Position numbers and translations under genes: made by a program
Notes under the pieces: model-generated
What the model saw: only the letters and a program-made list of their open reading frames with translations
What the model was told of the DNA's origin: nothing
Databases searched by the model: none
Shown: piece after piece, positions 17,822 to 46,890 of the stretch
How the letters are laid out: each line of letters starts with the position of its first letter
Position numbering within the stretch: the stretch's first letter is position 1
DNA from: Blepharisma japonicum
Lineage: Eukaryota; Ciliophora; Heterotrichea; Heterotrichida; Blepharismidae
Reading direction: 5' to 3'
Length of the DNA: 64,000 bases
Assembly: GCA_949751835.1 (NCBI GenBank)
Contig: CATKHK010000129.1
Location: 30,782 to 94,781 of the forward strand

Positions 17822-20800
17822 TTATTGTTCTGCCAAAATTGAATTAAAATCTTCACTCAAATATTCACTTTTTTTATCATCGTAACTTTGCTCAGCAAAT
17901 TCATAATTTACTGAGCGAAGAACTCCAGCTTGTGAAGGCGATCTTTTGGACAATTGAAATTTAAAAAGGCTAAGAATGTCTTGCCCTTTTGGAGACTCCA
18001 AAAGAGATGGAAGATTTCTATATTGATAGATCATTCCTATAATCACTAATAAAGCTCAACCTACTCCTATTACAGATTCAGCAGCAATTACACAAAACCG
18101 ACCAATTTCACAGCAAATCCAAAGCCAGACACAGCCAAATATAAATATTGTGTATCACAAAGAAGCCCTTTCATAATTATATGGCTTCCTAAACAATGTA
18201 AAAATTCCAAAAATAGCTATAGCTGTTGTGTAGCATACATCATAGGCAATCTCAGAGTAAGGTAAAAGAGTAGCATTCAGCATAACAAGTATAATCTGCA
18301 GAAAGCTTTTAATAACTGAATGAACAGGCTGCTCCTTAAAATGAAAAACCAAATCCCCAGTATCTTCTTTTCAAGATGCCCTAAAATGCAGGCTAGTTGG
18401 CAAATAAAGCAAAAGCGCCACAAATGAAGCTACTGCATATTTGACATGTTTACTTTGCCAACAAAAAATAGAGCAATCTTGATTAAGGAAACTTTTTTTA
18501 AAACTATCTTCAATGCTTTCTGTGCATTGAAAAGTTAAAAATAAAAAGTAAAAAATTGGCAAAAATAAAACATCACCAATAAAAGGCAGGGAATAACTCC
18601 CTAGCTCACCAATAATTATAAGCAAAGAGATCTTGCATTTTTTTCAGCAGCCAAAAATCTTTCCAAAGAGAAAAGTAAAAAATAAAATTACAATAATTCC
18701 AATTATACCTATTTGATAAAGAAATATAGAACCATGATCAAAATTTCTTATATCTATCATTGGAATTTTTGCTACTTTGGTCAGAATATTTGGCAAAATA
18801 TCAGTAAATCTGGGACCTATTGATATATATTGCAAGCACTCTATAAGCATTGCTAAGTACATAATTTGGTCAAAAATATTTTCTTCAGCTTTTTCTATAA
18901 TCATTGGAAATTGTCCGCATGGAGAATCATCAAAACTTTTATAAACAAAATATAGATCAAAAATTAAAAAAACTCCTCCAATAATAAGAAGAATTAAGTA
19001 GCCATAAAGGAAAGATCGAACTTCAGAAGGTTTAAAAGGACATGATAAATCAGCCCCTATAATTTCACTAGGAAGAATGCCTTTATTATCAGTATATCAT
19101 GAAATTTCATCAAAAACATCAAAAACAACTACTTTGGTAGGATCATAAATCCCAGTTAAGATTAATTGCCATTCTGAGTTATTTTTTATCAGATTATAAG
19201 TCCCAACCTTAATCGTTGACCTGTCATTGCCACTTTTACTTATTTGCACATTTCCTGAGCATCCTGTGAATTGGACTTTTCTTACCCATTCTTCAATTCC
19301 TGAACTGTTTAAATTAAACCCTCTACTTATCATAGAATCAATAGCATACGCTCCTAAATAAGTCACATCATAAAATAAGCACATATAATCATAAGTAAAA
19401 CCAAATTCTTGCAAAAAGTTATTATAAATCTGTTTCCCAAAAACCCCATAATACGATAAAAATGTGACATAAAGAGATCCTTCTACAAGCTCTGTGATGC
19501 TTTGATAAGAATCCTCATGCAAAATATTCGCTTCTGAAGCTCCAAAACTCCCTTCTCCGAAAATAAAATAGAGGTCTCCTTTCCTCATTCCTAATTCATA
19601 AAAAGCTTTAATTACAGAAAAAATTTCAGTATTTGAGACTTCAATGATCACATATCTTGTCTTTAAATCAACAATTTCTTGGATAAGTGATTTATCAGTG
19701 CCGTTATACCCGCTAGGAATTGCTTGATTTTTATTTAGAATTTCAAGATTATATTTCTCAGCTTGGCTGATGAATTGATTTTTAAAACTCAGACCCCAAT
19801 TTGAGTCAAGATACAGTAGTGAGCATTTGGTAATTCTAAACCAAGTTAATAATAGAACAACTGCGCTTGCAGTATACGTATTAGAAAAAGACACACTTGT
19901 ATACTGAAGATCATCATTATTTTTCAATGTAGGGTATGATTGAACACCAAGCACGGGGACTGAAATATTTAAAGATTGAAAAGCTGTTATCGTGCCTTCT
20001 ATCATCGTTACTTGTTGAGGGGAAACATGAAAATACCCTAAGTCTTCTAAATGCTTACTAAAACAGCTATTTGTATAATTGATATCAAAATAAGAAGCTC
20101 CGCAATCTGTTATGTTGCTAATCACTAGCTGAAAATTTTCAAGGATTTTTGAATCAGTATTTATTGAGTTCGCTGCATAAACTGAGCCTTTTTGGCAGTC
20201 TGCATTAAAATCATAAGTAGACCCATCAGGGTTGCTTATTCCTCCAGCAATACTGATCGGTATTTTTAGTCTTGAATTGTCTGGGATATTTGTAGTCCCT
20301 CCTGGGAATATAGGAGAAGAATATAAGTTAACAACACTGCTTGTGATGTTCCCAAAAGGTACAAGCTCGCTATTTTGTATATTGAAAAGATAAAACCTTT
20401 CTGTATTGACTCCATTAATTAGGAACGCATAAAATGCATATAATGAAAATGCTCCTTGTATTATGTCCATATTCATAAACATCAGCAAAAAAACCGTTGT
20501 ATTGTTAATAAGAATTTCAATATAGTTTTCTACCCCTGTAGGTGTCCAATTGTATTGTTCTATCAAAATAGCTCCTTCAAGGTATGCAGTTCATGCACTT
20601 TGATGGAGAAAAATGAATACATAGCCCTCCTTATTCATATCAGCCGCTTCTATTGCTTTTTGAATTAATTTTGAGAGATTTTCATTAGTTGCAATAATAA
20701 TAGTTTTAACCCCTAGGGGCTTAACTTCTTTCGACACAATAATAGATATTGCTTCATATGAAAGTCCTGATGGGAGGATTGCTTGATAAACAATTTCTAT

Positions 20801-21301
20801 ATCATTTACATCTTTAAAATCCATCCCAGAAAGCTCTTGGCTTAAAAACACCACAGCTTTTTGCCACCGATATTGCTTCATAAATGACAGAGCAGCATTT
20901 CTTATTATAATTTCTGAAGTATCAGAAAAATAAGTAAGCTGGGGTGGGTTGTCTGGAATAAACCCATAAACTAAATGCATGAAGTTATATGGTTTTGCAT
21001 ATGCACTGATGTGTGAGCTCATAATAGATGAAAATGTTAAGTCAAATAAATATGTGATATCCGAATCAGCTATCAGCTCTTCAAAATCATTCACATCATT
21101 TATTTCCATTGGGATATAAAATGCATTAGGGTTGGATTTGCAAGGCAATGAATTAAGATTGGGGCAATTATATTGATTCAAGATAACTTCTTTTATAGCA
21201 CTAGGAGTAAATTGACTGTATAAAATTGGAACATTGAGGTATTGACTTAAAGCGAATTTTATAAATAGGTAAAATATCAGCTTAATGATCTGCTGGAACA
21301 T
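17822..21301 (-). CDS. Receptor copy 1: tandem PBP1 domains plus nine-helix membrane protein
   Basis: This 1,159-aa protein starts at ATG 21299-21301 and ends at TAA. It has a signal peptide (LIFYLFIKFALSQ), then two type-1 periplasmic-binding (ANF receptor-like) domains at about aa 20-335 and 345-740. Domain 2 shows classic landmarks: a KIPISIAGG first strand, VSFSNTYTASAVVLLL, LFYDVTYLGAYAIDSM and the closing FTGCSGNVQISKSGNDRS. About nine membrane helices follow, then a tail with SPKGQDILSLFKFQLS. Such domains bind small ligands in class C GPCRs, glutamate receptors and guanylyl cyclases. This is the only inverted copy; its start faces copy 2 across 1.2 kb. About ten TGA Trp codons occur. 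Confidence 0.85.
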
Positions 21302-22522: not shown

Positions 22523-25500
22523 ATGCTGCGACTCTCAATTAAATTTTGGCTTCCGATCTTTTGTGGAATTGTATCAGCCCAGTTCCTCAATGTTCCTATT
22601 TTATATAGTGAATATACACCGAAGTCTGTTATAGACATGATTTGAAAAGAATTTAATTGTCCAGATATCAGTTATGAAAGATGCCGTGGTAATCCCTATG
22701 CGTTTTTCATACCTTTAGAAATAAATGACTTAAAAGATTTTGAAGAATTCATAGCAAGCCAAGATATCATTTTTCTTATGGATTGTACCCTTTCATCAAT
22801 CATAAGCTCCTATATTAGCTCCTATGCAGAAATTTATAGATTCATCCATCTCGTTTCGGGCTATACTCCCACTATTATTCCACCATTAACTTATTTCGCA
22901 GATACTTATATCACCGAATTCCGAAATGGAGCCATTTCTCTAGTAAAATATTTTGGCTTACAAAAAGTTGTTGTACTTCTGAGCCAAGAAAACTCAGAAA
23001 TGGATTTTCGAGTAGTCTCTGATATTGAAGTTGTTTTTGAAGCAATTCTTCCTCCTGGACTTTCTTATGAAACCATTTATATCATTGTTTCTAAGCAAAT
23101 TAAGCCACTTGGCATAAAAACTCTTATTATTGCAACTGATGAGTATCTTTCTAAATTAATTCAGCAGGCCATAATAGAAGCTGAGATGGATAAGGATGAG
23201 TATGTCTATATTTTTATCCATCAAAGTGCTTGAACTGCTTATCTTGAAGGATCATTTTTAATAGAAGATTACTGATGGATATCTAAAAGCTCTGAGGATT
23301 ATGCAGCTATATTGATTAATCATGTAACTAGTTTTCTGATGAGTCTTATGTATGTATATCCTATTACAGGGACATATTCATTATATACAATTTATGGATT
23401 TTTGTTAAGCCAAGTAAGTCTTCAAAGATTTTACTTTTTCAATATACAAGATAATGAAGTAAATTTGTTAGGAAATATCACTGATAAGATTGTTAATCCA
23501 TATGTTCCAATTACTTTTAAAGGTGGAATTATACCTGATAATTCAAAGATAAAACTTCCATTGAGTATTTCAGGTGGATATAATAATCCAGATGGATCCT
23601 CATATCTGTATAATGCAGAATGCCAATATGGGTCCATTAGTGCTGCTAATGATATTAATACTGATTTTAACATACTTGAGAATTTTGAGCTTGTTGTATA
23701 CAATATAACAGATTGTGGAGCTTCTTATTTTGATAGTGGGCACGCGAGTAAATGCTTTACTAATAATATAGATAATTTGGGCTATTTTCATGTCCCCTCT
23801 CAACAAACTTCTATGATTGATGGCACAATGACTGTTTTTAAAGCCTTAAATATTTCAGTACCTGTCCTAGGTGTTCAAGCTTCAACGTCATTAAACAATG
23901 ATTATTACCCTCAGTATACAAGTGTGTCATTTTCCAATATTTATACCGCAAATGCCATTGTTTTTCTTCTTGCTTCTTATAGAATCAACAGAATTTCCCT
24001 ACTTCACCTTGATACTCCTGCAGGCAAAAATTTTAAAAATCAGTTTTTAAGCCAAGCAGAAGCATATAAAATTGAAATTTTAAATAAAAATCAAGAAATT
24101 CCCAGTGCTTATAATGGGACTGATAAATCCATGCTTCAAGAGATTATTGATATAAAATCAAGATATGTCGTAATAGAAGTCACAAATGCTGAAGTTTTTC
24201 CAGTAATAAATGGATTTTATGACTTAGGAATGAGAAAAGGAGACCTTTATTTAATTTTTGCAGGAGGATTTAGTGTATCAAACTCTGATATCGTTGAAAG
24301 CGAGTATAAACAATTATTAGAAATTGCAGACGGATCTCTTTATATAACATTTTTATCATTCTATGGGCCATATGGAAAACAAATTTATTCAGAATTTGAG
24401 CAAAAGTATGGGCTTGTATATGATTATATGTGTCTGTTTTATGATGCAACCTTTTTAGGAGCCTATGCAATAGACTCAATGATAAGCCGAGGATTTAATT
24501 TAAATAGTTCAGGGATTGAAGAATGGATACGAAAAGTTCAATTTAGAGGATGCTCAGGAAATGTCCAAATAAGTAAGAGCGGAAATGACAGATCTACTAT
24601 AAAGATAGGAATTTATAATTTGAAATTAAATAACACAAGCTGGAATATTATATTGAGCGGAGTTCATGATCCTACCAAAGTGGTAGTTTTAGAAGCTTTG
24701 GCTGATGTTTCATGATATACTGAAAATGATGGGATTCTTCCAAGTGAGATTATTGGGGATGATTTATCATGCCCATTTAAACATGAGGAAGTAAGGTCCT
24801 TTTTATATGGATACTTAATTCTAGTTATCATTGGAGGGTCTTTTCTAATTTTTGACCTTTATTATCTCTACAAAAGTTACGATAACACTGTCTCAAGAAA
24901 GTTTTCACTGCTTCAGTGTAAAACTGAAGAGAATGTATTAGACCATTTACAGTATTTTATAATGATAATTGAGTGTCTGCAATACATCGCTATTGGCCCT
25001 AATTTTAAAAAGGTATTTCCTGACTTTTTTACAAGAATCACTAAAATTTCAACACTAGATCTACGAGGTTGAAATCAAAAATATGAATGGAAAATCTGAT
25101 ACCAAATAACCTTAATGGAGTCTATATTAGGTCTTTGGCTTGTTTTTCTAATTTTTAGTATTTTTGGTTTCTGGAGAAAATGGAAAATATCATTAATCAT
25201 CATAGTCAGTGAAATAGGAAAACTTTGCCTTCCTATTATAGGAGATATTTTATTTTTGCCTATGATTTGGTTTTTATTGTTAACTTTTCAATGCACAGAA
25301 AGCATAGGAGATAAGTTTACAGAGAGTTTTCATAATCAAGACTGTACTGTTTTTTGCTGAAAAGATGACCATATTAAGTATGCAGTTGGATCAGTTATTT
25401 CAATTTTGATTTATTTGCCTACAAGCTTATATTATAGGCCTACTTGAAAAGATAATACTGGGGATATGGTTTTTCACTTTAAAGAACAGCCTTATCATTC

Positions 25501-26002
25501 AGCTGTAAAAAGCTTTATGCAGATTGTTTTAGTTGTACTTAATGTTGTACTGTTGCCTTATAATGATACTGCCTATACAGTATCTTTTGTTTTTATTATT
25601 GGAGCTTTTGGAGCTTTTACATTATATAGAAAGCCTTATAACTATGATAGAGCTTCTCTATGATATAGCTTATTTATTTTTAGTTGTGTTTGGCTTTGAA
25701 TTTGTTGTGAGGTTGCAAGATTTAATGTGATTTTTTCTGAATGCATTGTGGGGGTTGGCTGGTTTTTATTAATTGTAATTGGAATTATTTATCAAAAGCG
25801 GAAACTTCCTTCATTTTTGGAGACTCCAAAAGGGCAAGATATTTTGAGGCTGTTTAAATTTCAATTATCTAGAAGATCACCTTTTCAAGCTGGAATTCAG
25901 TCATCTGCAGTATATAGTTATGTGGAATATAGCAGTGGTGGAGATAAAAAAAAGAGTGATTTTAATAGTGAAAATATTTCTTCTATAGGATTTTTGCATT
26001 AA
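22523..26002 (+). CDS. Receptor copy 2: tandem PBP1 domains plus nine-helix membrane protein
   Basis: This 1,159-aa protein is read from ATG 22523 through all in-frame TGA codons to TAA 26002. The signal peptide is FWLPIFCGIVSAQ. PBP1 domain 1 spans about aa 20-335 (LVKYFGLQKVVVLLSQE, IKPLGIKTLIIATDE) and domain 2 about 345-740 (KLPLSISGG, SVSFSNIYTANAIVFLLA, FRGCSGNVQISKSGNDRS). Predicted helices lie near aa 757-782, 804-826, 858-882, 890-922, 950-971, 993-1013, 1016-1034, 1046-1073 and 1075-1091. The cytosolic tail contains TPKGQDILRLFKFQLS. With a cleaved signal and nine helices, the ligand domains are outside and the tail inside. It is the first of five head-to-tail copies. Confidence 0.88.
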
Positions 26003-26629
26003 TGCAATTATATACTTAGAAGCAAAAATAATTTTAAATAAATATAATTGATCGTTTTAAAGCTATATTCCTAAAGAAAAATAATTTTCTTTAATCTATT
26101 TGAAAGTAATATATAAAATTAAAAAAGAAAAATTTTAATTTATTTAAAATTTTGACTATTTTAAATTGGAGAATTCCCCTTAAAGCATTATGCTATGAAT
26201 AGTTGATGCAATGACATATAAAGCAACATATAAAAAATTCAAAATTTATAATTATATTTCTAATATTTTAATTTTATTAAGGATTTGGAAGAATTTTTAT
26301 TAAAATTAAATAAATGTTAAAATAAATATATTATAGTCAATTTAAATTTTAGTTGTTGTTGTTTTATGTCCTCTCTCAACTATTGAACTATATCGCTTGC
26401 CTTTTATAAAAGAAATAAATTATTACACGTTTTGAAAATCCTTAAGGTTATTCAAACTATCTCCTAAAAATGGGTGATGATTTTTGGCTATAATGGAGTT
26501 TTTATAATTTAAAAGAATTTCGTTCATAATTATTTAAAATAATGAGACCCTCAAATATAAAAATTTAAGTCATTTAATTTAAAAATTTGTTTTTATATGC
26601 TGATAAAATAATATTCAGTAATTTTATCA
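26003..26629. other. Spacer between receptor copies 2 and 3
   Basis: AT-rich DNA with no supported gene. A short open frame at 26587-26802 in another frame is a shadow of the start of copy 3. Confidence 0.6.
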
Positions 26630-29600
26630 ATGTTACAGATAATTATCAAGCTGAAATTTTGATTATTCAATTTCGTTCTATGTCAATATCTAAATGTTCC
26701 AATTTTATACAGCCAATTCACTCCTATCTCTATACAAGACATTATTATAAATCAGTATTATTGTCCAGATCTAAGCTTCGAGCCATGCAAATCGAATCCT
26801 AATGCGTTTTACATTCCAATTGAAATAAATGATGTGAATGATTTTGAAGAGCTTATGGCTAATACAGACATCACATATTTATTTGACTTAACTTATTCAT
26901 CAATTATGAGCTATCATATAAGTGCATATACAAAACTTTATAACTTCATGCATTTAGTGTATGATTTTATTCCAGATAACCCTCCTCAGCTTACTTATTT
27001 TTCCGACACCCGAGAAAGCATTATAAGAGATGCTGGAGTGTCGTTTGTTAAACATTTTGGTTGCCAAAAAGTTGTGGTGTTTTTAAGTCAAGAGCTCTCT
27101 CAGATGGATTTTAAAGATGTAAGTGATCTCGAAATTGTATATCAAGCTGTGATTCCTTCAGGAATCTCATATGAAGCGATTTCTATTATTGTGTCAAAGG
27201 AAGTTAAACCTTTAGGAGTTAAAACCATTATTATTGCAACTAATGAGAATATTTCGAAATTAATACAAAAAGCAATAGAAGAGGCCAATATGGATCAGGA
27301 AGGCTATTTCTTTCTTTTTCTACATCAAAGTGCTTGGACTGCATACCTTGAAGGAGCCATTTTGATAGAAGAATATGACTGAACTCCTACAGGTGTAGAA
27401 AATTATATAGAAATTCAAATAGAAAGAACAACAGATTTTTTGCTAAAGTTTATGGATATGAGTCCAATACAAGGAACTTTCTCACTATACTCCTTTTATG
27501 CTATACTTGTTAATCAAATTAATATTGAAAGGTTTTATCTTTTTAATATCCAAAATAATGAACTAGTACCTATAGGAAATATCACCAACAATGTTGTCAA
27601 TTTACAGTCTTCTCCTATTTTTCCAGGAGGAACGACAATTATTCCAAATAATTCTAAGCTAAAAATTCCAATAAGCATAGCTGGAGGCACAAGCAATCCT
27701 GATGGATCCATATATGATTTTAATGCAATTTGTCAGAATGGGTCAATTTATGCTATGAATTATATAAACACAGATTCTGATATCCTTGAAAATTTTGAAC
27801 TTGCAATAAACAATATAGTAGACTGCGGGGCTTCTTATTTTGACAGTGCATATGTAACTAACTGCTACAGTAAACACTCGAATGATTTAGGGTATTTTCA
27901 TATTCCGCCTGAACCACTTTATATGGCAAAGGGTATATTAACAGTTTTTGAATCTCTCAATATCACAGTTCCTGTGATTGGTGTTAAATCTTCAGCTCTA
28001 ATGCAAAATAGTTACTATCCTCAATACACAAGCGTTACTTTTTCCAATACATATACAGCAAGTGCAGTTGTTTTATTATTATCGTCATTCGGAATTAAAA
28101 AATGTTCTTTACTCTATCTTGACACAGCTTGAGGCCAAAGTTTCAAAAATCAATTTATTAGTCAAGCCAAACAGTATAATCTCGAAGTTTTAAACAAAAA
28201 TCAAGCAGTTCCTCAAGGATATAATGGCACTGATAAAACAATTCTCCAAGAAATTGTTGATTTAAAGACAAGATATATCATTATGGAAGTTACAAATATA
28301 GAAAATTTTTCAATTATTGAAGCGTTTTACGATTTAGGAATGAGGAAAGGTGACCTTTATTTGGTATTAGGAGAAGGAGGCTTCAGTTCTTCAAATAGTA
28401 ATTTAAATACTGAATTATATAAAAAAGTAGCAGAAATTGGAGACAGAGCTCTTTATATGTCATCTTTGACATATTATGGGGCATTTGGAAAATCAATTCG
28501 TAAAAGATTTTTTGATGAATACGGGTTTGCAAATGACTATATGTGTCAGTATTTCGATGCAACTTATCTCGGAGCATATGCAATAGATTCAATGATAAAT
28601 AGAGGGATTAACGTAACAAGTCTAGGAATAGAAGAGTGAATAAGAAAGATCAAATTTATAGGCTGCTCAGGAAATGTGCAAATAAGCAAAACTGGGAGTG
28701 ACCGATCAACTATAAAAATCGGAGTATATAGTTTAAGATTAAACAGTACTAGTTGAAGTATCTCATTAAGTGGAATCAATGATCCTACTAAATCTGTATT
28801 TTATGAATCTATAAAAACAATTTTATGATATACTGATAATGATAATGTACTTCCCAGTGATATTATTGGGGATGACTTATCATGTCCATTTAAGCCTGAA
28901 GAAGCAAAACAATTTTTTTATGGTTATTTAGTTCTCATTATCCTTGGGAGTTCTTTTCTTATTTTTGATATATATTTGATATATAGGTTTTTTAAAAACT
29001 CTACAAACAATCAGATACCTATGCTTGTAGAAAAAGTTGAAATAAATATTTTTGATCAATCTATATATTTAGCGATGTTGATAGAATGTTTGCAATATAT
29101 ATCAATAGGTCCAGATTTTACTGATATAATGCCAGAATCTTTCACTAAATTTTCTAAAATTTCAATACTAGATATTAGAGATTTTATTCGAGCTAATAAT
29201 TATAAATTTTGGTACCAAATGGATATGATTTACTTTATTTCAACTTTATGAATAATTTTTCTTTTAAGAAAAATTTTTGATTGGTGAAGAAATTGTAAAC
29301 CTCGATTAATATCGATAATTATTGGGGTAGGGAGCTGTTTTCTATCAGTTATAGGAGATATTTTTTTCTTGCCAGTCATTTATTTTTTATTTTTGAATTT
29401 TCAATGCACAGAAAGTATAGGAAATAGCTTTGAAAAGAGTTTTCTTAACCAAGATTGTACGATTTTTTGTTGAAAAGGGGAGCATAAAAATTATGCCGCC
29501 TCCTCATTTGTATTCCTTTATTTGTACTTGCCTGCATGCTTATATTATCGACCGAATTGAAAAGATGAGTTTAAAAATATGCATTTCCATTTTAATGAGC

Positions 29601-30100
29601 AACCTTCAAATTTAATTGCTAAAAGCTTCCTGCAGATTGTACTAGTTATTCTAAGTACAACTCTTTTACCTTATTCCAAGATTGCCTTTAATATATCATA
29701 CACAGCAATAATAGCTGTTTTTGGAATTTATACATTGTTTAAGAAGCCGTTTAATTATGGAAGAGCTTCTCTATGATACACAATATTTATTTTTGGTTGT
29801 GTCTGGCTTTGAATTTGCTGTGAAATTGCTAAACTAAATTTAACATCAGCCCAAAGCGTTCTTGGAATTGGCTGGTTGCTGCTAGGACTTGCAGGAAATA
29901 TTTATCAGAGACTAAAACTTCCATCACTTTTGGAAGCACCTAAAGGACAAGACATTTTAAAACTGTTTAAATTTCAGTTTTCTAGGAAGTCACCTTCAGA
30001 GGCTGGAATTCAAGCTTACGTAAAGTATTATTATGTCGGCCAAGATAATCAAGATAACAACGATATTCATGAAAATTTCTCTCTTGAAATTTTGGATTAA
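26630..30100 (+). CDS. Receptor copy 3: tandem PBP1 domains plus nine-helix membrane protein
   Basis: This 1,156-aa protein starts at ATG 26630, which gives a hydrophobic leader (IIIKLKFWLFNFVLCQ) directly before the conserved YLNVPILYSQFTP. An upstream open reading in another frame was discarded. It has the same two PBP1 domains, nine helices and APKGQDILKLFKFQFS tail. Copy 3 is closest to copy 1 in domain 1 (for example DITYLFDLT, PDNPPQLTYFSDT). At 27335-27337 the conserved HQSAW Trp is TGG, whereas copies 1, 2 and 4-6 use TGA, which is direct evidence for the code. The region between 29251 and 29579 is continuous when TGA is Trp. Confidence 0.86.
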
Positions 30101-34800: not shown

Positions 34801-35830
34801 ATCAAAAGTTTTATACAAATAGTTTTAGTTGTTTTGAACCTCATCCTTTTGCCTTATTCAGATGCTGCTTATTCGGTATGCTTTATTATTATTATGGCAA
34901 GTTTTGGAATTTTTACATTATATAAGAAACCATATAGCTATGACAGACCTTCCCTATGGTATACCATATTTATATTTTGCTGTTCCTGGCTTTGAATTTG
35001 TTGTGAAATTGCAAAAGCTAATGTGATTTTTGCTCAATGCACTTTAGCGGCTGGCTTACTTTTGTTAGGAATTATAGGATTGGTTTATCAGAGACTCAAA
35101 CTTCCATCATTTTTGGAAGCTCCCAAAGGGCAAGATATTTTGAAGTTATTTAAATTTCAACTTTCTAAGCAGTCACCTTCTGAAGCTGGAATCCAAGCTT
35201 CTATGAAGTATATTTATATTGACCAAGATTCCAAGGACAATAGCAAAAGCGACAATTATCGTGAAAATTGCTCTCCAATATTTTCAGATTAGATTTATAA
35301 GTCATTAATTTAAATTTAAAGAGTTTATGATTAATTAAATGATCCTTTTTATAGCTTGTTCAATTTAAATGGGAGACTTAGACTGGACTTTTATATACTT
35401 GACGGAATTAAGTTGATTTGATCAAGAGCTGCAAGTACATTAGTCGAAATTTGAATGCTTGAGTTGACATATCTCAGATTAAAATCAGTACTGTCAAATT
35501 CTGGCAGTAGAGAAACCCTAAGAAGGGTGGAATTGGATGGGTAACGTGTATTAGGCGTAATCGAGACTTATTTTAATAAATTATATGCGTTTATATAGAA
35601 GCTCCAGAAAACTAGGCGTTAGATGATCAAAATAGTTCATATATAAAGGTTTAAATTCGAGATGTAACTTATTATACATATTTATTGTATTTTCTTCTAT
35701 GGAATTTCTAGTTTTGTCTAAGAGTCTCTTGAATAGTATAATAGTCTCTATTTTTTGTGATGTATTAAAAATATTTGGCAGCTTCAGAATTTTTCATGAG
35801 TTATATGTTTTCTTTATAAATCTTAAGCCC
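31693..35830. repeat. 4.1-kb segmental duplication, left copy (contains receptor copy 4)
   Basis: The whole block, including about 120 bases upstream and 540 bases downstream of receptor copy 4, matches about 38060-42205. Differences are scattered substitutions and a few small indels. The right boundary is near 35830 (agttatatgttttctttata), after which the two flanks diverge. Confidence 0.85.
31813..35292 (+). CDS. Receptor copy 4: tandem PBP1 domains plus nine-helix membrane protein
   Basis: This 1,159-aa protein runs from ATG 31813 to TAG. The leader is EIFILLLLTIASGQ. Domain 1 is more diverged from copies 1-3 (ETYQFLDVIPDYNPG), while domain 2 keeps KLHISISGG, SISFSNTYTASAIVFLLA, YDATYLGALALDSM and FTGCSGKVQISKSGVDRS. 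The helices and the tail APKGQDILKLFKFQLS are conserved. It is nearly identical to copy 5 and must be a recent duplicate. At 34366-34368 it has TGA where copy 5 has TGG. At about 32930 a TGA gives Trp where copy 5 has Ser (QYGW versus QYGS). Confidence 0.88.
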
Positions 35831-35910
35831 CAAAAAGTTTAATCTAAAAATTTTAGAATTAGAATTGTTTTGATGGCCTAAAGCCAAATTACATTTTTAT
35901 TAAAAGAATC
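35293..35910. other. Duplicated 3' flank of receptor copy 4
   Basis: There is no gene here. About 540 bases are shared with the 3' flank of copy 5. Inside are two short potential hairpins, ctgtcaaattctggcag and accctaagaagggt (35490-35530), present in both copies. Confidence 0.55.
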
Positions 35911-36069
35911 ATGAGCTTTAGGCTTAGATGTATTAATGCAACAGAACAATTAATGAAAGAATTGCTAGACTTAAATATTCGGGAAGAATTTTACAGACAA
36001 TGGCAGCAATGCTTGAATAAAGTCAAATCAGCATATTGGCAAGTCTTTATACTTGCTGCATATTCCTAG
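35911..36069 (+). CDS. Small orphan open frame
   Basis: These 52 codons run from ATG to TAG with protein-like composition (LLDLNIREEFYRQWQQCLNK). The pattern resembles fragments seen at the ends of transposase genes, but the match is too short to claim. There is no counterpart beside receptor copy 5, so it lies in DNA specific to this spacer. Confidence 0.25.
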   Translation: MSFRLRCINATEQLMKELLDLNIREEFYRQWQQCLNKVKSAYWQVFILAAYS

Positions 36070-36312
36070 AAATTTCATGTAAATAGGGCGAATCACCAGC
36101 TAATAGTCAGTTTTAATTCATGTGCAGCAAAAGCATATATGAGTAAATGCCAGTGTACGCATTGCAAGCACAATTGTCTTATAGAGAATTAATTTCACAT
36201 CTTAGAAGATTGTTAACTTTACACAAAATAGAAAATCGGTTATTACTTATTAGGATGAGTTTACTCCCCATCCCCCCTTTAATTGGAACATAAAATTCGG
36301 TTCAATTTAAAA

Positions 36313-36758
36313 ATGGTAAGTTTTGGAATTTTTACATTATATAAAAAGCCATATAACTATGACAGGGCTTCTCTATGGTATACAATATTTATATTTTGCT
36401 GTTCCTGGCTTTAAATTTGTTGTGAAATTGCAAAAGCTAATGAGATATCTGCTCAATGCACTTTTGGGGCTGGCATATTTTTGCTAGGAATTATAGGATT
36501 AGCTTTCCAGAAGCTAAAACTTCCGTCATTTTGGAAACTTCTAAAGGCCAAGATATTTTGAAGCTATTTAAATTTCAGCTTTCTAGGCAATCACCTTCTA
36601 AAGCTGGACTCCAGACTTCTATAAAATATATTTATATTGACCAAGATTACAAAGATAATAGCAAAAGCGACATTTATTGTGAAAATTACTCTCCAATATT
36701 TTATAGTCAAATTAATTCAAATTTATTTTTTATAGCTTTATATTTTTTAAAAAATTAA
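36313..36758 (+). pseudogene. Receptor C-terminal pseudogene fragment
   Basis: This piece matches the last two helices and tail of receptor copies 4 and 5 (compare 41266-41664). It has lost its reading: the conserved WLWICCEI segment has TAA in place of the second Trp codon, and one base is missing at the LPSFLEAPKG motif, which shifts the frame. No upstream receptor sequence accompanies it. It shows that a further copy once stood here or that a 3' end was duplicated alone. Confidence 0.85.
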
Positions 36759-38181
36759 AAAAATCTAATCTGATCTGAAAATATTTAATTTCTGTAAGAC
36801 TGACAAATTGCCTCATGTTCTGAGATTAAGCTTGATTTTTCCAGAAAATTATTTTTTTTTCTACTAGCTTATTGTTGATTTCCTATTCATCTCCAATTCG
36901 TATTATTTCCATTTTCGCATTCCATAATCGCTTTCAATCATATCAGCGTTATTTTTAAAACTCTGCAAAGTATAAGAAATTGCCAAAAAGAAATCAAGAT
37001 CAATTTGGTATATACACTTTCTGCCATTGCGACAAAAAATATATTTATATATCTAGGAATATATGATTTAAAAAAATATCAAGGAACTCATAAAATTAAT
37101 TCGAATTATAATATGGTATGAAAAATTAAAGAAAGTCCAATTTGATTTAAAGACATTTTACATCAATTATTACATTATATTAGGTTAAGTGCGTTCTAGT
37201 AATATTTAAGCTTACTCTAGTATCTTTGGCAACTCTTCCATACTGAACTTTATTCATTTTGCCTCATAAAAATCATTATCTCTCCACTTCTGCAATCATC
37301 AAACCTAGATATCCCAGAGTTTTATTGCATTTCCCTTCCCATGGAATAAATTGCCTATATTAATTAATAATAAAAATTGCATATTAAAATTTTTCAATTC
37401 CAATATGAAGAATATACTCTGTTTTAATGCCAAAGCAATTGATTTGTGCGTACTCTAAATAAAAAGAATGATTAATAATTGCTATTGCTTCTTTAGTATG
37501 AATAATACCTCATATTTAATGCCTTAATGAATTTATGTTTTTATCAAATGCTTGCAATTATTTAACTCTATAATAAATACTAGAACTAAATTAGAATTAA
37601 ATTATACCTAACAATAATTTTATTAAAAATACTTGCTGACTTGATTAAAAGCGACTTTGTAATATTATTATGTTTTATTGGGATATACTGAAAATTCATT
37701 ACTGAGTTAATAATATCTGAGCTTAAAAACAAAAATCACTATAAACATTGCTTAGAAATTAATTTCTGATAAATTTATCCCACTAACTTAAAAAAAGAGT
37801 GATAATTTTTTAATAGACTTAAGTATAATTATTGAAATATTAGAAATATATTTCTACAGATAAAATTTATAATTTATTTACAATAATCTAATCAAAGCTC
37901 TTACTTTTCCATTGTTTTCTTTAGTTGTATTTCAATTTGAGCCATTTTATGAAATTCTAAGAATCTGTTATTCTTTGATTTTCGTAGTAAATTCAATGAT
38001 TAGTGACTAAAGGGCGCTTTTTCTGTTTCTCAATTCGATAAAAAATAGTATTCTGCCTATAATTTATACTTGATTTTAAGTAGTATGGTTAAAAGCATGC
38101 TGAATGATCAGTCATTATCAGAAAATTTGAAAATTCTATTTGGTAACTTTATTAAGTTGGATAAATATAATTTAAAAGAAA
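36759..38181. other. Spacer before receptor copy 5
   Basis: AT-rich, with no supported gene. The 37740-37930 part resembles DNA at about 42260-42480 beyond copy 5 (shared gaaattaatttctgataaat), an older repeat. From about 38060 it is the 5' flank of the 4.1-kb duplication. Confidence 0.55.
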
Positions 38182-41100
38182 ATGCTACTGTTCTATTATG
38201 AAATTTTTATTCTGCTGCTTCTTACAATAGCTTCAGGCCAATACCTCAATGTTGCTGTTGCATATAGCAAATTGACCCCAAAGGAGATAGTAGAAATAAT
38301 AAGAACTAAATTCAATTGTCCAGATCTTACCTATGAATGATGTTTTGAAAAAAGCTCCTTAGCATTTTACACACCTGTTGAAATAAATGATTTAAAAGAT
38401 TTTGAAGAATTCATAGAGAATCAAGATATTTCTTACCTTATAGATTTTACACTTTCATCATTGCTAAACTTTTATATCTCCTCCTATGCAGAAACTTATC
38501 AATTTTTAGATTTAATCCCTGACTATAACCCAGGTTTTGTTTCTCCCTATGCAACTTATATCAATGGTCACGCCACCTCTTTAAGGGATTCAGCAATTGC
38601 TCTAGTTAAATATTTTGGCTTACAAAAAGTTGTAATTCTTACGAGCCAAGAAAATTTAGAAATGGGCTTTGATAAAGTATCAGATGTTGAAGTAGCATTT
38701 TATGTAATTCTTCCACATGGTCTTTCATATGAAACCATTTATATCATTGTTTCTAAGCAAATTAAACCGCTTGGTGTAAAAACAATTATTATTGCGACCG
38801 AAGAGAACTTGGCTAAACAAATTCAGAAAGCGGTAATAGAGGCTGAGATGGATAAAGATGAATATGTTTACATTTTAGTCCACCAAAGTGCATGAGCTGC
38901 TTATCTCGAAGGGGCATATTTAATAGAAGACTATCCCTGAATGATGAAAAGTTATGTGAATTATGCTGAGTTTTATGTTAATCAAGCAGCAATTTATATA
39001 ATGGAATGAATGAATCTAAACTCTAAAAATGGAGCAATTTCTGAATATTCAATGTATATGTTTTTGGCTAATCCAAATAATGTAAATCCTGAAAGATGCT
39101 ATTTTTTTGTTATGCAGAATAATGAAGCTTACCTTTTAGGACTTATCTATCTTAAGGTTGTATACCCATATGAACCAATACCCTTTAAAGGAGGTATTCC
39201 ACCTGATAACTCTAAGATAAAACTTCATATCAGTATTTCAGGCGGAAGTACAAATCCAGATGGATCTTCCTATATTTATAATAAAGACTGTCAATATGGA
39301 TCAATATGTGCCGTAAATGTTATTAATACAGATTTTAGCATACTTGAAAACTTTGATCTAGTTATTAATAATATAACAGACTGCGGGGTTTCTTATTTCG
39401 ATAGTGATTATGCCAGTAAATGTTTCAATGACCATTTAAATGACTTAGGCTATTTTCATGTTCCCTCTCAACAAATTTCTATGATTGATGGCACACTGTC
39501 TACTTTTAAATCATTAAATATTTCAGTCCCAGTTCTTGGTATTCAGGATTCAGCGTCTCTGCACGATGATTATTACCCTCAATATACAAGTATATCATTT
39601 TCTAATACTTATACAGCAAGTGCAATAGTATTTCTTCTGGCTTCTTACAGAATTAATAAAGTTTCAATACTATACCTTGACACTGCTTCAGGCAGAAATT
39701 TCAAAAATCAATTTTTAAGGCAAGCAGAGGCATATAATATTAAAATTTTAAATAAAAAACAAGCAATTCCAGTTGGTTATAACGGTACTGATGAATCAAT
39801 GCTCCAAGAAATTATAGATATAAAATCAAGGTATGTCATCGTAGAAGTTACTAATACTGAAGTATTTTCAGTTATAGACGGCTTTTATAATTTAGGGATG
39901 AGGAAAGGAGACCTTTATTTGATTTTTGCAGGAGGTATAAGTGTTTCAAACTCTGATATAAATGAAAGCAGACATAATCAATTACTAGAAATTGTAGACG
40001 GCTCTCTATATATAACATTTTTATCATTTTATGGGTCATATGGAAAACAAGTGTATGAAAAACTTTTGAAAGAATATGGATTTACTTATGATGATATGTG
40101 CTTATTTTATGATGCAACCTATCTTGGAGCTCTTGCTCTAGACTCGATGATAAATAGAGGATTTAATTTAATTAGCTCAGGAATTGAAGAATGGGTAAGA
40201 AGAGTTTATTTCACAGGGTGTTCAGGAAAAGTTCAAATAAGTAAGAGTGGAGTTGATCGATCTACTATAAAGGTAGGAGTCTATAATTTGAGGTCGAATG
40301 GTACCAGCTGGGATATCATTTTAAGCGGAATTTATGATCCTACCAAAGTAGTTGTTTTAGAAGCCTTAGATGATGTTACATGGTACACTGATAATAACGG
40401 GGTTCTCCCAAGTGAAATTATTGGTGATGATTTACCATGTCCGTTTAAGTCTGAAAAGGTTAGGTCATTTATTTATGGATACTTAATTCTATTTATTATT
40501 GGAGCATCTTTTCTAGCTATTGATTTATTTTTTCTCTATAAAGTTCTATCACAAAAAAAATTGAAAAATCACTCAATTCTTGATTGCAAAACAGAAGAAA
40601 ACATCCTTGATAACTTACAGTATATTATCATGGCAATCGAATGCTTGCAATACATAGCTATTGGTCCAAGCTATAATGACATGTTTTCTGATTCTTCGAA
40701 AAGGGTTATTAGAATAGCAACACTTGATTTTAGAGGGTGGAATATAAAATATGATTGGACAATCTGATACCAAATAATATTAATGGAGTCTATTTTAGGC
40801 ATTTGACTTATTTTCTTGGTTTTGAGGATTACTACTTTCTTGAGAAAATGTGAAACTACATTGGTCACAATAATCAACGAAATTAGCCAAGTGGTTCTTC
40901 TTTGCACAGGGGATATTTTATTTTTGCCAATGATATGGTTTTTATCATTGACTTTTCAATGCACAGAAAGCATTGGAGATAATTTTACAGACAGTTTTCA
41001 TAATCAAGATTGCACCGTGTTCTGTTGGCAAGATGATCATACTTATTATGTCATTGGGTCAGCTTTTTCGATCTCACTTTATTTGCCTTTATGTATATAT

Positions 41101-42205
41101 TATAGGCCTTCTTGAAAAGATGATATTGGAGACTTGATTTTTCATTTTAAAGAGCAGCCTTACCATTCAGTCATCAAAAGCTTTATACAAATAATTTTAG
41201 TTGTATTGAACATCATCATTTTACCTTATTCAGATACTGCTTATTCAGTATGCTTTATTATTATTATGGCAAGTTTTGGAATTTTTACATTATATAAGAA
41301 GCCATATAGCTATGACAGAGCTTCTCTTTGGTATTCCATATTTATATTTTGCTGTTCCTGGCTTTGAATTTGTTGTGAAATTGCAAAAGCTAATGTGATT
41401 TCTGCTCAATGCACTTTAGGTGCTGGCATACTTTTGCTAGGAATTATAGGATTAACTTATCAGAAGCTAAAACTTCCATCATTTTTGGAAGCTCCCAAAG
41501 GGCAAGATATTTTGAAGCTATTTAAATTTCAACTTTCTAAGCAGTCACCTTCTGAAGCTGGGATCCAAGCTTCTATGAAGTATATTTATATTGACCAAGA
41601 TTCCAATGATAATATCAAAAGCGACAATTATCGTGAAAATTACTCTCCAATATTTTTAAATTAGATTAAAAGTTAAATTAATTCAAATTTAAAGAGTTTA
41701 TGATTAATTAAATGATCCTTTTTATAGCTTGTGCCATTTAATGGGGAGACTTAAACTGGACTTTTATATAATTGACGGAATTAAGTTGATTTACCCAAGA
41801 GCTGCAAGTACATTAGTCGAAATTCGAATGCTTGAAGTTGACATATCTCAGATTAAAACTAGCACTGTCAAATTCTGGCAGTAGAGAAACCCTAAGAAGG
41901 GCGGTATTGGACAGCTGATGGGTATTGGGCGTAAAGCTAGACTATTTTAATAAATTATATGCGTTTATATAGAAACTCCAGAAAACTAGTTGTTAGATGA
42001 TCAAAATAATTCATATATAAGGGTTTAAATTTGAGATGTAACTCATTATACATATTTATCGTATTTTCTTCATATGGAATTTCTAGTTTTGTCTAAGAGT
42101 CTCTTGAATAATGCCATAGTATCTATTTTTTGTGACGAAATATTTATTAAAAATATTTGAAGCTTCAGAATTTTTCATGAGTTATATGTTTTCTTTATGA
42201 ATCTT
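38060..42205. repeat. 4.1-kb segmental duplication, right copy (contains receptor copy 5)
   Basis: This is the counterpart of 31693-35830. It includes the shared upstream stretch atggttaaaagc...gatcagtcattatc and the shared downstream stretch ending near 42205. Confidence 0.85.
38182..41664 (+). CDS. Receptor copy 5: tandem PBP1 domains plus nine-helix membrane protein
   Basis: This 1,160-aa protein runs from ATG 38182 to TAG. It is nearly identical to copy 4 over the full length, including the leader and tail. One extra codon lies in the N-terminal region (FEKSSLAF versus FGNSLAF). Differences concentrate in domain 1 and the linker (NLNSKNGAISEYSMY versus YQNPTHGAISEYSMY). The Trp at 40738-40740 is TGG where copy 4 has TGA. 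All frame-joining TGA codons are at positions conserved as Trp in other copies. The gene appears intact. Confidence 0.88.
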
Positions 42206-43401
42206 AAAGAAATTAAATTCATTTTCCGTTCTATTGATTATCACGAAATCTAGAAGAATTGTTTGTATTGATTCATTGTAGTAAGAAATTAATTTCTGAT
42301 AAATTAATATAACTAGCATAAAAAAATATAAAAATAAAATTAAAACGCATTTTAGCTGAGAATAAAGCCTTATTAATAAGGAAAATTCTAGAAATAGCAT
42401 CATCCACATAGCGAATTTATAGGTTTGCTTGCTCATATCATAGAGCTGATCCAAGCTTTGACTTTTTCATTGTTTTTCTTTATAAATTTAGCGAATCTAG
42501 GAAGGAGTAACTAGAATTTAAATACTTGAAAATTAAAATTTTCAAGATAATAAAATATCAGAGATTGACACCAGAAGGCAGGGATAGAGAGCAAGAAGAA
42601 GGTAAAAGAGTAAGGAGAGAAAGCATCTGAGAAATGTTTTGGTCATATGGAATGAAAAAGGGAAATACATATAAGAGTATCTGAGGTTATAAGTACCCGC
42701 TTATTAATTGGATTTAATTAACAAAACAAAATTGGCAGCAAAAGTGATAAATGTGTAAAAGTTGTTCTCAATATATCCAGTTTAAAGTTCAAATTAAATG
42801 ATTTATAAGCTAACTTCCTATGGTAATAATTGTTTAATTTTTATTATTAGATTAGTAAGCCTCTTTTTATTTATGTCTAAAGAAGATTTAAAAATTCTTA
42901 AAAATGAATAAAAAGATAAATAGAAATAATTTACTTCGATTAAATTTGAATAAATAAGATCAATATATTTTTATAAAACGCTTTAATGCTTTTGTATAAT
43001 TTTTGCATGTATCGCCTAAAAAAAGATATGTTAAAGCCATATATAACTATTCTCATCTCTCATAGAAGTCAAATTAAATGGATTCTGGAAGATCTATTAG
43101 CATTTATCATTAAAAATTCAAAATTTTATTTAAATAAAGCATGATCGCTTCTTTAATAATTCCAGCACATTTTCTTTTTAAGACTTTTTTTTTTATTTGC
43201 AATAAGAATTGAATTTGCATTTGATATTAAAAAGTCCTTATAGAATAAAGAAAATTTGAAACGAACCTTGATTTATATTAAAATAAATTTAATTCATATT
43301 TTATTGCAAAACTAGCTCTCTTAACACAAAAATATTTAAAATTCAAAAATATTTTGCAGGTTAAATGAATAACTATATAATTTGGCATAATTTAATAGGA
43401 A
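41665..43401. other. Spacer between receptor copies 5 and 6
   Basis: The first 540 bases are the duplicated 3' flank. A minus-strand open frame at 42182-42454 encodes a strongly hydrophobic 90-residue stretch (FFMLVILIYQKLISYYNESI) but has no good start and a degraded relative near 37740-37930. I consider it a possible gene fragment. The rest is AT-rich with nothing recognised. Confidence 0.5.
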
Positions 43402-46400
43402 ATGTTACGATTCTCTATGAAATATTACTTCCTACTATTTTTTACAATAGCATTTGGTCAGTTTATCACTATTCCTTTATTATACAGCAAATATACTCCT
43501 GAATCAATAAAAGAGGTCCTATTGAAAGAATATAATTGTCCTGATCTTAACTCAGAAAAATGCATAGGCAATCCAGATGCCTTTTTCATCCCTTTAGAAG
43601 TAAATGATGCTAATGATTTCTTAGAATTTATCGTCGGCCAAGATATTTTATTTTTATATGACATAACTTGTTCTTCAGTAATAAATGCATATATTGATGC
43701 ATATGCTACACAGTTTTTATTTTTACATCTAGTATCTGGATATACACCAAATGCTATTCCGCCATTAACTTATTATGATCACACCAGATATACTTTAATA
43801 AGAGATGGATGCATTGCTTTAGTGAAACATTTCGGATGGCAAAAAATCATTGTTTTTGTAAGTCAAGATTTCTCGGAGATGGATTTTCAAGCTGTTACAG
43901 ATGTTGAGGTCGTTTTTATGACAATTCTTCCGACAGGGCTTTCATATGAAACCATATATATCATTGTTTCAAAAGAAGTCAAACCTCTAGGGGTAAAAAC
44001 AATCGTAATAGCGACAAATGATAATATGTCTAAACTAATTCAACAAGCAGTAATAGAAGCTGAGATGAACACAAAAGATTATATTTATATTTTCCCCCAT
44101 CAAAGCGCATGAAGTGCATATCTTGAAGGAGCACTTACATTAGAAGAGTACGCTTGGATGCCTAAAAACATAGCAAATTATGCTGAAATTATAATCAACT
44201 ACTCAGCAAATTTTTTAATGAATTTAATGAATTATTACCCAATACAAGGCTCCTTTTCGTTATATACATTTTATGGATTTTTACTTACTCAAGTTGTCCT
44301 TGAAAGATTCCACCTTTTTAATATCCAAAACGGGGAGCCAGTTTTAGTTGGAAATATTACCAATAGAGTGGTTACTTTCTATACCCCTCCTATTTTTAAC
44401 GGAAATCTAACAACGCCTCCTGACAATTCAAGGATAAAACTACCTATAAGTATTTCTGGCGGAAGTACCAATCCCGACGGATCTAATTATATATATAATA
44501 CATACTGCCAATTAGGCTCAGTTCATGCTATAGATACTATTAATTCCCAGTCAAAAATACTTGAAAATTTTGATTTGGCTATTAACAACATAACAGACTG
44601 TGGTGCCTCTTATTATGATAGCGATTATGCAAGCAAGTGCTTTAAAGAACACTCAGCAGAGCTAGGGTATTTTCATGTCCCTGCTCAGCCAATTGTTATG
44701 GCAGAAGGTACATTAAATACTTTTAAAGCCTTAAATATTTCAGTCCCAGTACTCGGAGTTGAAGCATCAGCTTCACTTAGCAACAATTTTTATTCACAAT
44801 ATGCAAGTGTATCATTTTCAAATACATATACAGCAAATGCAATTGTTTTACTCCTTGCATCTTTAAGAATCACAAAGGTTTCTTTGCTATATCTTAATAA
44901 TCCTTGAGGTGAAAATTTCAAAAGTCAATTTCTCAATAGAGCGGAGTCATATAAAATTGATGTTATAAACAAAAACCAAGTAATTCCCAGTGGTTATAAT
45001 GGCACCGATAAATCATTTGTGAAAGAAATTGTTGATTTAAAGACAAGATATATAATAATTGAAGCAACCAATACTGAAGTATTTTCAATTGTAGTAGCTC
45101 TTTATGATTTAGGAATGAGGAAAGGGGATGTTTATTTGGTCTCTGGAGGAGGGTTAGGCCTAACCAGCAATGTTCAATATGCAATAGGTGAAGACTCTTA
45201 TAAAAAACTAATAGAAATTGGGGATGGATCACTTTATGTCACTTTTTTGTCATATTACAAAGCATTTGGGGAGCAGATTTATGGAGAATTTCTCAAAGAA
45301 TATGGGGTTGCTTATGATTATATGTGTTTATATTATGATGCAGCCTATCTAGGAGCATATGCAGTAGATTCAATGATAAGTAGAGGATTTAACTTAAATA
45401 GCTCCGGAATTGAAGAGTGAATAAGGAAAGTTCAATTCTCAGGATGCTCAGGAAATGTTCAAATAAGTAAAAGCGGCAATGATAGATCAACTATAAAGGT
45501 AGGGGTTTATAATTTGATTAGAAACAACTCAAACTGAGAGTTAAAATTGAGTGGAATCAATGATCCTACCAAAGTCATTGTCTATGAGTCTTTAATTGAT
45601 ATTTCATGATATTCTGATAATAATGGAATCCTCCCAAGCGATATCATAGGAGCTGACTTGTCATGCCCATTTAAATCTGAACAAGAACGATCATTTTTAT
45701 ATGGCTACCTGATTCTTCTTATTATTGGAGGGTCTTTTTTAATTTTTGATATATATTTTCTCTATAAAAATTTCGAATTTACATTATCAAGAAAGTACTT
45801 AATGCTCCAATGCAAAACAGAAGAAAATATCCTAGATAACCTTATGTATTTTGCAATGATAGTAGAATGTTTCCAGTATATTTGCATAGGTCCAGATTTT
45901 ACAGACTTATTTCCTGATTTTTTTAAGAAAATAATAAAAATTTCAGCACTAGATTTCAGAAATTTATCGAAAAATTTAGATTGGACAATATGATATCAAA
46001 TAATTATGATGGAAATTATTTTGGCAATGTGGCTTTTTTTCCTTATCGGCAAAATGTTTAACATTTGGAGAAAATGCAAGATTCAATTAATTGTAATAAT
46101 AAGTGAAATTGGCAATATTTTGCTTCCTATTATAGGCGATATATTATTTTTGCCAATGACATGATTTTTATTACTAACTTTCCAATGTACAAAAAGTATA
46201 GGAGATAACTTTAAAGACAGCTTTCATAATCAAGACTGCACTATATTTTGTTGGCAAGATGATCATTTGAAATATATCGCAGGATCGTCTGTAGCGATTT
46301 TGCTTTATTTACCTGCAAGCTTGTATTATCGACCCTCTTGAAAAGATAATACCGGAAATTTAGTTTTTCACTTTAAAGAGCAGCCTTATAATTCAGTAAT

Positions 46401-46890
46401 TAAAAGCTTCATGCAGATTGTTTTAGTTGTGATGAATACAACACTTTTGCCTTATTCTGATATTGCTTACACTGTATCATTTGTTTCTATTGTCTCAATT
46501 TATGGGGTTTTCACATTATTTAAAAAGCCTTACAATTATGATAGGGCTTCTTTATGATATACGATGTTTATTTTTTGCTGCGTTTGGCTTTGGATTTGCT
46601 GTGAAGTCGCAAGATTTAATATGGTTTTTGCTGAGTCCATAATAGGCGTTGGCTGAGTTTTGTTAGGAATTATTGGAATTATTTATCAAAAACGAAGACT
46701 TCCGTCATTTTTAGAGTCTCCAAAAGGACAAGACATTCTAAGACTTTTCAGGTTTCAGCTTTCCAAAAAATCTCCATTTCAAGCAGGAATTGAAGCTTCT
46801 GTGAGCTATATTTATATTGACCAGAGCAGCAGTGATAACAAAAAAAGTGAGTTGTTTAGCGAAGGATTTCATTTGGAGTTTTTGCATTAA
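43402..46890 (+). CDS. Receptor copy 6: tandem PBP1 domains plus nine-helix membrane protein
   Basis: This 1,162-aa protein runs from ATG 43402 to TAA. The leader is KYYFLLFFTIAFGQ. Domain 1 (LVKHFGWQKIIVFVSQD) and domain 2 (KLPISISGG, SVSFSNTYTANAIVLLLA, YDAAYLGAYAVDSM, FSGCSGNVQISKSGNDRS) are conserved, as are the helices and the tail SPKGQDILRLFRFQLS. In the membrane domain, FQCTKS replaces the FQCTES found in the other intact copies. It is not part of the recent duplication and is the last receptor gene of the array. Confidence 0.87.

Follow-up and report, generated by a model that had tools for sequence, protein, structure and literature searches.

Six adjacent genes of the ciliate Blepharisma japonicum, at positions 17822-46890 of a 64,000-nt stretch of contig CATKHK010000129.1 (hereafter the window), probably represent a single tandem array within a very large chemoreceptor family of the cell surface, in an organism that appears to read TGA as tryptophan. 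Each predicted protein places two PBP1 (Venus-flytrap) modules in front of a domain of about nine membrane helices, and the family is far larger than the six genes of the array. A ligand-binding fold joined to a conserved set of helices, in a family that is large and arranged in tandem, would most economically be read as serving chemoreception, and heterotrich chemoreceptors with a new type of membrane domain are probably the best reading of these genes.

The array genes and their flytrap modules

Six intact open reading frames (ORFs) of 1,159, 1,159, 1,156, 1,159, 1,160 and 1,162 amino acids (aa) were found in the array when TGA was translated as Trp, in line with the six intact genes of 1,156-1,162 aa claimed in an earlier reading of the letters alone (the sequence-only reading). 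With translation table 11 all six were fragmented, and the frames are open only with TGA as Trp. A TGA codon is present in 22 aligned columns of the six paralogs, 9 of which hold purely TGA or TGG in all six genes, and TGG fills 35 of the 77 non-TGA cells opposite TGA, compared with 0.7% TGG overall. Because Trp codons are conserved in the columns opposite TGA, these results support the reading of TGA as Trp in the array genes, whose stop codons are TAA or TAG. TGA is likewise reported as Trp in the somatic genome of Blepharisma stoltei (41 Mb, 66% A+T; PMC9942806); the A+T content of the window is 69.5%.

The proteins share one layout, with a first PBP1 domain (D1) at about residues 20-335, a second (D2) at about 345-725, a membrane region at about 745-1,100 and a tail of about 60 residues. 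By-eye reading showed at each N-terminus a hydrophobic stretch followed by a small residue before Gln, which agrees with the signal peptide named in the sequence-only reading. The tail motif PKGQDIL.LF.FQ, which it had also described as common to the six, is invariant in 6/6 window proteins; it is absent from the family locus L001 and partial in L007. The features of the array are as follows.

17822-21301, minus strand: gene 1, 1,159 aa, with hydrophobic N-terminus, PBP1 domains D1 and D2, a membrane domain of about nine helices and a tail; opposite in orientation to the other five
22523-26002, plus strand: gene 2, 1,159 aa, architecture as gene 1
22580-23527, plus strand: D1 of gene 2, first PBP1-like domain; the profile match is weak here and better in the paralogs
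23555-24697, plus strand: D2 of gene 2, second PBP1 domain, predicted from an ANF_receptor match at profile positions 9-351 of 353
24755-25999, plus strand: membrane domain and cytosolic tail of gene 2, used as query for a protein search of the genome
25826-25864, plus strand: tail motif of gene 2, PKGQDILRLFKFQ, from sequence comparison of the six proteins
26630-30100, plus strand: gene 3, 1,156 aa, architecture as gene 1
31813-35292, plus strand: gene 4, 1,159 aa, architecture as gene 1; recent duplicate pair with gene 5
36289-36710 (approximate), plus strand: relic of a seventh copy, about the last 135 family residues (helix 7 to tail), in two frames
38182-41664, plus strand: gene 5, 1,160 aa, architecture as gene 1
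43402-46890, plus strand: gene 6, 1,162 aa, architecture as gene 1

The gene 5 region (38062-42207) and the gene 4 region (31690-35826) are 94.7% identical in DNA, and the relic that sits between these two genes is the 3' end of a truncated receptor copy. An arrangement related to the relic was observed on another contig, C217 (locus L037). The gene 1 protein is 54-66% identical to the other five.

Pfam scanning showed that PF01094 (ANF_receptor) is the one family matching all six whole proteins, with 79.9-104.4 bits against a cut-off of 25.4 (E 2.4e-22 to 8.6e-30) and two stretches in each. The other matches at E<=1 were PF13458 and three chance matches to domains of unknown function (DUF), and NCBIfam gave only two matches on the array proteins, both far under cut-off. 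When D1 was scanned alone, it matched PF01094 at E<=1 in 6/6 proteins (best 1.3e-7), and that of gene 2 reached E 0.028 and 13.9 bits, under the 25.4 cut-off. We regard the predicted assignment of D2 as PBP1 as firm and that of D1 as weaker; the two tandem ANF-receptor-like domains of the sequence-only reading, and its ligand-binding-domain calls, passed profile search with the same difference between the first and the second.

Compared with PDB chains, the D2 profile of the six proteins placed mGlu8 and mGlu4 on top, with weak scores (E ~0.013). D2 of L001 found 102 distinct PDB sequences at E<=0.01, and among the best 60 of these 102 the plant glutamate-receptor-like (GLR) protein GLR3.4 came first (7.7e-18), followed by T1R2a (7.1e-11), GABA-B1 (5.1e-8) and mGlu1 (4.4e-7). 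Through this relative, the link of the family D2 to the flytraps of class C receptors and GLRs appears firm at the sequence level. With the D1 profile, PDB yielded just five unrelated matches (E 0.09-0.31) and none to a PBP1 chain, and comparison of the six-sequence profiles of D1 and D2 gave no significant similarity (P 0.5). An AlphaFold2 (AF2) model of the ectodomain, with the six window sequences as input, was poor overall, with a mean predicted local distance difference test (pLDDT) score of 43.5. Values above 50 were found at model residues 111-213 and 458-559, one stretch per half, and in both stretches the ten-residue means were mostly 60-87, with strands and helices alternating. A Foldseek search with this low-confidence model placed chains of mGlu, NMDA and bacterial solute-binding proteins at the head of its list (E from 2e-6), at TM-scores of 0.13-0.17; the whole ectodomain model is therefore unreliable.

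Family size, pairing of domains and expansion

Three protein searches of the host genome (a 45.2 Mb assembly of 224 contigs, in which C labels denote contigs and L labels denote loci fetched from it) gave at least 103, at least 116 and at least 117 membrane-domain matches, which merged into at least 163 distinct places. Together with 18 PF01094 places that had no membrane place, about 181 candidate genes were counted; this number is approximate, as the 18 include at least two upstream matches of counted genes, some places are broken and the searches are lower bounds. A family neighbour lies within 8 kb in 140 of the ~181 candidates.

The PBP1 and membrane domains were found together wherever tested, in both directions. 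Of 106 PF01094 places in the genome, 84 are followed by a membrane place within 700 bp. Sixteen of the remaining 22 were examined, L007 and L008 by reading and L069-L071 and L080-L090 with a hidden Markov model (HMM) of the family (L085 as a partial match, L086 split over frames), and 16/16 carry the membrane domain. Five further places, one on C133 (by reading), one on C64 and three on C112 (these four from equal open-frame lengths), are upstream matches within genes already counted in this way, and one sits at the edge of a contig. For the reverse test, we scanned 10 of 79 membrane places still unpaired; PF01094 was found upstream of 8/10, seven times over the cut-off and once just short of it (25.1 of 25.4 bits). 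In the two others the open frame extends only 110 and 158 aa upstream.

A quick tree of 59 membrane domains grouped the six window genes with two genes of C217 (SH-aLRT 95), inside a 23-row clade that includes genes on C126, C17 and C105, and the contig labels changed 28 times on the tree compared with a shuffle mean of 46. These results support a tandem expansion of the family. Genes 4 and 5 are matched at 95-96% DNA identity by the two copies on C217, a contig that may represent another version of the array. A small group of four members on separate contigs (L001-L003 and L006) stands out by far better PBP1 scores and a scarcity of TGA codons; perhaps these are the ancestral, conserved receptors. 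In the recent pair of genes 4 and 5 the outer domain, D1, had diverged more than D2: omega was ~0.8 in D1 and 0.14 in D2, residue changes numbered 35/316 in D1 versus 13/381 in D2 (p 7e-5), and the ratio of non-synonymous to synonymous changes was 42:10 versus 14:23. Fifteen of the 80 differences between the two fall at residues 250-300.

The membrane domain

Besides the 6 window genes, the membrane alignment of 55 members includes 49 of 68 loci. The loci omitted are 6 that correspond to the window genes themselves, 4 second copies of included genes (L039-L042), L028 and L033-L038 (partial, gapped or broken), L043 (partial) and L046 (with a stop). The 54 other aligned members are 21-70% identical to the gene 2 membrane domain. 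Hydropathy averaged over the alignment showed nine to ten peaks. A model of nine helices with the N-terminus outside and the C-terminus inside fitted best, with Lys/Arg at 14.4 inside versus 9.3 outside, whereas a ten-helix variant in which helix 4 is split in two reversed this balance (9.8 inside versus 13.9 outside); the helix-4 region is a long, ambiguous hydrophobic stretch. The topology would thus be the nine-helix one, as the sequence-only reading had counted about nine. Fourteen residues are invariant in 55/55 members. Four are cysteines (C750, C924, C941 and C945 in gene 2 numbering), all of which would lie outside under the nine-helix model, and the others are P751, D807, E817, Q820, W946, Y964, R972, W975, K996 and G1079; charged and polar invariant residues are located in helices 2 and 6. 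Outer loops 2 and 4 hold 22 N-glycosylation sequons each, and the outer end of helix 6 holds 28. An AF2 model of the membrane domain, again from the six window sequences, had a mean pLDDT of 33.7.

The 55-member profile matched 0 distinct sequences among PDB chains at E<=10. Pfam at E<=1 over the 55 domains gave 20 families, each in at most 4 members: S_4TM in 4 (best 6.2e-4), 7TMR-DISM in 2 (best 3.2e-5), Oxidored_q2 in 2, and 17 families in one each. When 40 of the 55 members were rescanned singly (E<=0.1), all the Pfam matches listed were under the curated cut-offs, which were compared for these 40 and for member 1; the best S_4TM match reached 19.7 of 26.9 bits. The nearest approach was to 7TMR-DISM_7TM (PF07695), with 24.4 of 29 bits in L031 (E 3.2e-5) and 16.5 bits in L029 (E 0.0085). 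Bacterial 7TMR-DISM receptors also have a sensor domain followed by a helix bundle, and the two matches cover about residues 208-342 of the membrane region (the last helices, ~135 residues) and profile positions ~34-169 of 205; both are under the curated cut-off, however, and 53/55 members have no such match at E<=1. L029 and L031 are on C126 within the window's own clade, and their matches could be due to chance or could point to the ancestry of the bundle.

Other candidate families were likewise without a match. Pfam at E<=1 found no cyclase, kinase or other output enzyme domain and no NCD3G in the six whole proteins, no Lig_chan (PF00060) in these or in the 55 membrane domains, and 7tm_3 (PF00003) in 0/55; the family has no match to Ion_trans. 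In the genome, 7tm_3 has three places at E<=1, one of them over cut-off, at least 388 kb from the nearest family place on a shared contig, and Lig_chan has 10 places at E<=0.1, at least 150 kb from the nearest family place on a shared contig. A class C seven-helix core was rejected, as the 7tm_3-like gene on C5, the one whose place is over cut-off, aligned with the family profile only at P 0.34; a reversed copy of this gene scored better (P 0.0074), and such P-values are therefore loose.

A K/R-P-Y/F motif after a helix, common to both, had suggested the fungal-type TRP-like family PF06011 (FLC/Pkd2-type), which is also a multi-helix domain. PF06011 was found in 0/55 members by Pfam, and hhalign, which aligned the motifs, gave a probability of 1.1%, P 0.05 and a score of 21.1, no better than the best block-shuffled controls (3/60 above 21.1, at 23.5, 22.7 and 22.1; plain reversed copy, 13.4). 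Half of these controls keep forward 25-residue blocks and so may contain the motif, and the PF06011 side consisted of seven pieces of the host genome; we treat the resemblance as a lead, not as evidence. The 30 PF06011 places in the genome at E<=1 are separate genes, at least 7.7 kb from the nearest family place on a shared contig, and the family HMM, applied to 22 loci, found 14/14 family loci, 0/7 PF06011-like loci and not the 7tm_3-like locus. These TRP-like genes are grouped on C139 (L072, L075, L076) and occur also on C110 (L073), as a separate multi-helix family of the host genome. Viral and prokaryote contig collections gave no relative of the membrane domain, a weak negative because the search patterns were short.

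These results indicate that the membrane domain convincingly matches no characterised channel, G-protein-coupled receptor (GPCR) or transporter family in Pfam or PDB, and the sequence-only reading had rightly held that it fits no class C GPCR, glutamate receptor or cyclase. It had further noted that no seven-helix bundle, pore loop or cyclase is visible. The first and last of these observations agree with the lack of 7tm_3 and cyclase matches; a pore loop may be present, since the helix-4 region is ambiguous and the membrane model poor.

Possible signalling and its alternatives

In the mechanism that we propose, a small molecule would close the cleft of an extracellular flytrap module, and the movement would be relayed through a short juxtamembrane segment with a CPF motif and through the cysteine-rich loop between helices 4 and 5. 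The helix bundle would thereby be rearranged and would itself produce the signal, either by passing ions or by way of a cytosolic partner bound to it, and many diverged copies would cover many ligands. The bundle is proposed as the source of the signal because the proteins have neither a kinase nor a cyclase domain and a canonical G-alpha was not detected. The G-alpha search of the host genome gave 35 matches at E<=0.1, at profile positions 3-52 or 143-264 and none covering 53-142, and the only one to pass the cut-off consists of three successive stretches that share a frame on C42; such matches would be expected of Arf-kind small GTPases. Receptor guanylyl cyclases (ANP receptors) resemble the family in their ANF_receptor ligand-binding region, but they have one helix where the family has many, and the family is without their kinase-homology and cyclase domains.

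Among possible outputs we tentatively favour direct gating of ion flux. Ligand-gated ion channels, in which the nine-helix domain is itself a pore opened by closure of the flytrap, are a serious possibility, though one we would put below an even chance. Ciliate signalling runs through membrane potential and calcium, and the lack of any effector domain in the six proteins, the lack of a detected canonical G-alpha, the invariant charged or polar residues of helices 2 and 6 and the long helix-4 stretch, which could be re-entrant, all suit a channel. On the other side, no pore signature was identified, the family matches none of Ion_trans, Lig_chan and PF06011, and the membrane model has low confidence. 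Ionotropic glutamate receptors and plant GLRs share with the family two stacked extracellular modules, and GLR3.4 is the best PDB match of D2 in L001; their second module is a periplasmic-binding-II ligand domain, whereas that of the family is PBP1. A bolder form of the proposal is that the double PBP1 modules directly drive a nine-helix domain with a fold of its own, probably ion-conducting, as a previously undescribed flytrap-gated class of ~180 or more genes that would be the main chemosensory repertoire of a heterotrich ciliate, independent of the class C GPCR and glutamate-receptor machinery. We judge that this stronger claim falls only a little short of an even chance.

Divergent seven-helix receptors of the class C GPCR or 7TMR-DISM type, with two extra helices and output through a cytosolic partner, seem unlikely. 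The nearest PDB matches of the PBP1 domain are class C receptors and plant GLRs, a similar order of extracellular flytrap, short linker and helix bundle recurs in class C GPCRs (mGlu, GABA-B, T1R), and 2/55 members show the sub-threshold 7TMR-DISM match over their last helices. The family differs from class C by its two tandem flytraps and about nine helices, by a CPF linker in place of the cysteine-rich domain, and by the lack of 7tm_3 and NCD3G matches; the genomic 7tm_3 places are distant, the one such gene compared is no closer than P 0.34, and no canonical G-alpha was found.

Nutrient uptake, by a solute-binding protein fused to a permease that imports amino acids or other prey-derived solutes, is about as improbable. 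PBP1 domains are bacterial solute-binding folds and a multi-helix partner suits a carrier, but no permease or carrier family was convincingly matched in any of the 55 members, two tandem flytraps and ~180 paralogs would be unusual for a carrier, and the faster change of D1, seen in one pair only, better suits recognition. Receptors for mating (gamones) or cell-cell recognition are very unlikely; the sequence-only reading had named gamone sensing as one speculative role among many. A PBP1 domain could in principle bind gamone 2, but nothing links the six genes to mating, and ~181 genes exceed the need and argue for a broad repertoire, though one or a few members could still serve in mating. In the sections of PMC10892320 that treat Blepharisma mating, the signals are the glycoprotein gamone 1 and the small, amino-acid-derived gamone 2, and the receptors are spoken of as putative.

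Several points weigh against heterotrich chemoreceptors with a new membrane type as the reading of this family. The absence of G-alpha is a negative from one assembly, and GPCR-dependent G-protein activity has been reported in Tetrahymena (PMC3226668). The membrane domain could equally be a transporter, and the 7TMR-DISM matches hint that the bundle might be a distant form of a known one. Sequons occur also in proposed inner loop 1 (10), inner loop 7 (8) and the tail (12), a mixed distribution, on both sides of the membrane under the proposed topology. The excess of change in D1 comes from a single gene pair. Compared with the membrane domain (27/345), it is non-significant when counted in residues (p 0.18) and borderline when counted in codons (p 0.048). 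In the other 14 pairs omega stays below 0.5 in D1, D2 and the membrane domain, with synonymous divergence (dS) saturated in many.

The remainder of the window holds other membrane-protein genes and a repeat. An RSN1_7TM channel gene (12729-14999, minus strand; E 1.9e-28), which we take to be of the OSCA/TMEM63 type, adjoins the receptor array. At 56649-60362 on the minus strand, a 1,237 aa ORF has WD40 propellers in its first half and Ion_trans in its second (E 3.3e-7), an apparent propeller-channel fusion whose channel half shares 86% DNA identity with the Ion_trans gene beside it (61962-63698, minus strand). An adjacent pair of Acyl_transf_3 membrane acyltransferase genes lies at 6373-8379 and 9216-11255 (both minus strand). 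A direct repeat of 1-806 and 1886-2594, in two ~0.35 kb pieces (1-369 versus 1886-2254; 467-806 versus 2254-2594) that are 97% identical, overlaps a mitochondrial carrier gene.

To our knowledge, little is understood of the receptors by which ciliates sense chemicals. In 2012, a survey of 83 genomes, including Paramecium and Tetrahymena, added 118 class C members from fungi, a sponge, choanoflagellates and Capsaspora, and it counts none from the two ciliates (PMC3251606). The words 'receptor' and 'ligand' occur zero times in the main text of the Blepharisma genome paper (PMC9942806), and no paper on PBP1-type receptors in ciliates was found by title or abstract in open-licence PMC full text. 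Ciliate proteins may already bear the ANF_receptor name in automatic annotations, because this literature scope is open-licence PMC and not protein databases, supplements or subscription journals. Within that scope, the genes appear to form a real, large, receptor-like family that is undescribed. The undescribed chemoreceptor class of the sequence-only reading is upheld in part: an expanded tandem surface family fits chemoreceptors and the membrane part is unmatched, while the flytrap sensor, as far as the matches indicate, is the known part. These ~180 double-flytrap receptors with an unmatched membrane part provide a concrete gene set for work on heterotrich chemotaxis, feeding and mating, and the family may offer another solution to the problem of coupling a flytrap to a membrane domain.

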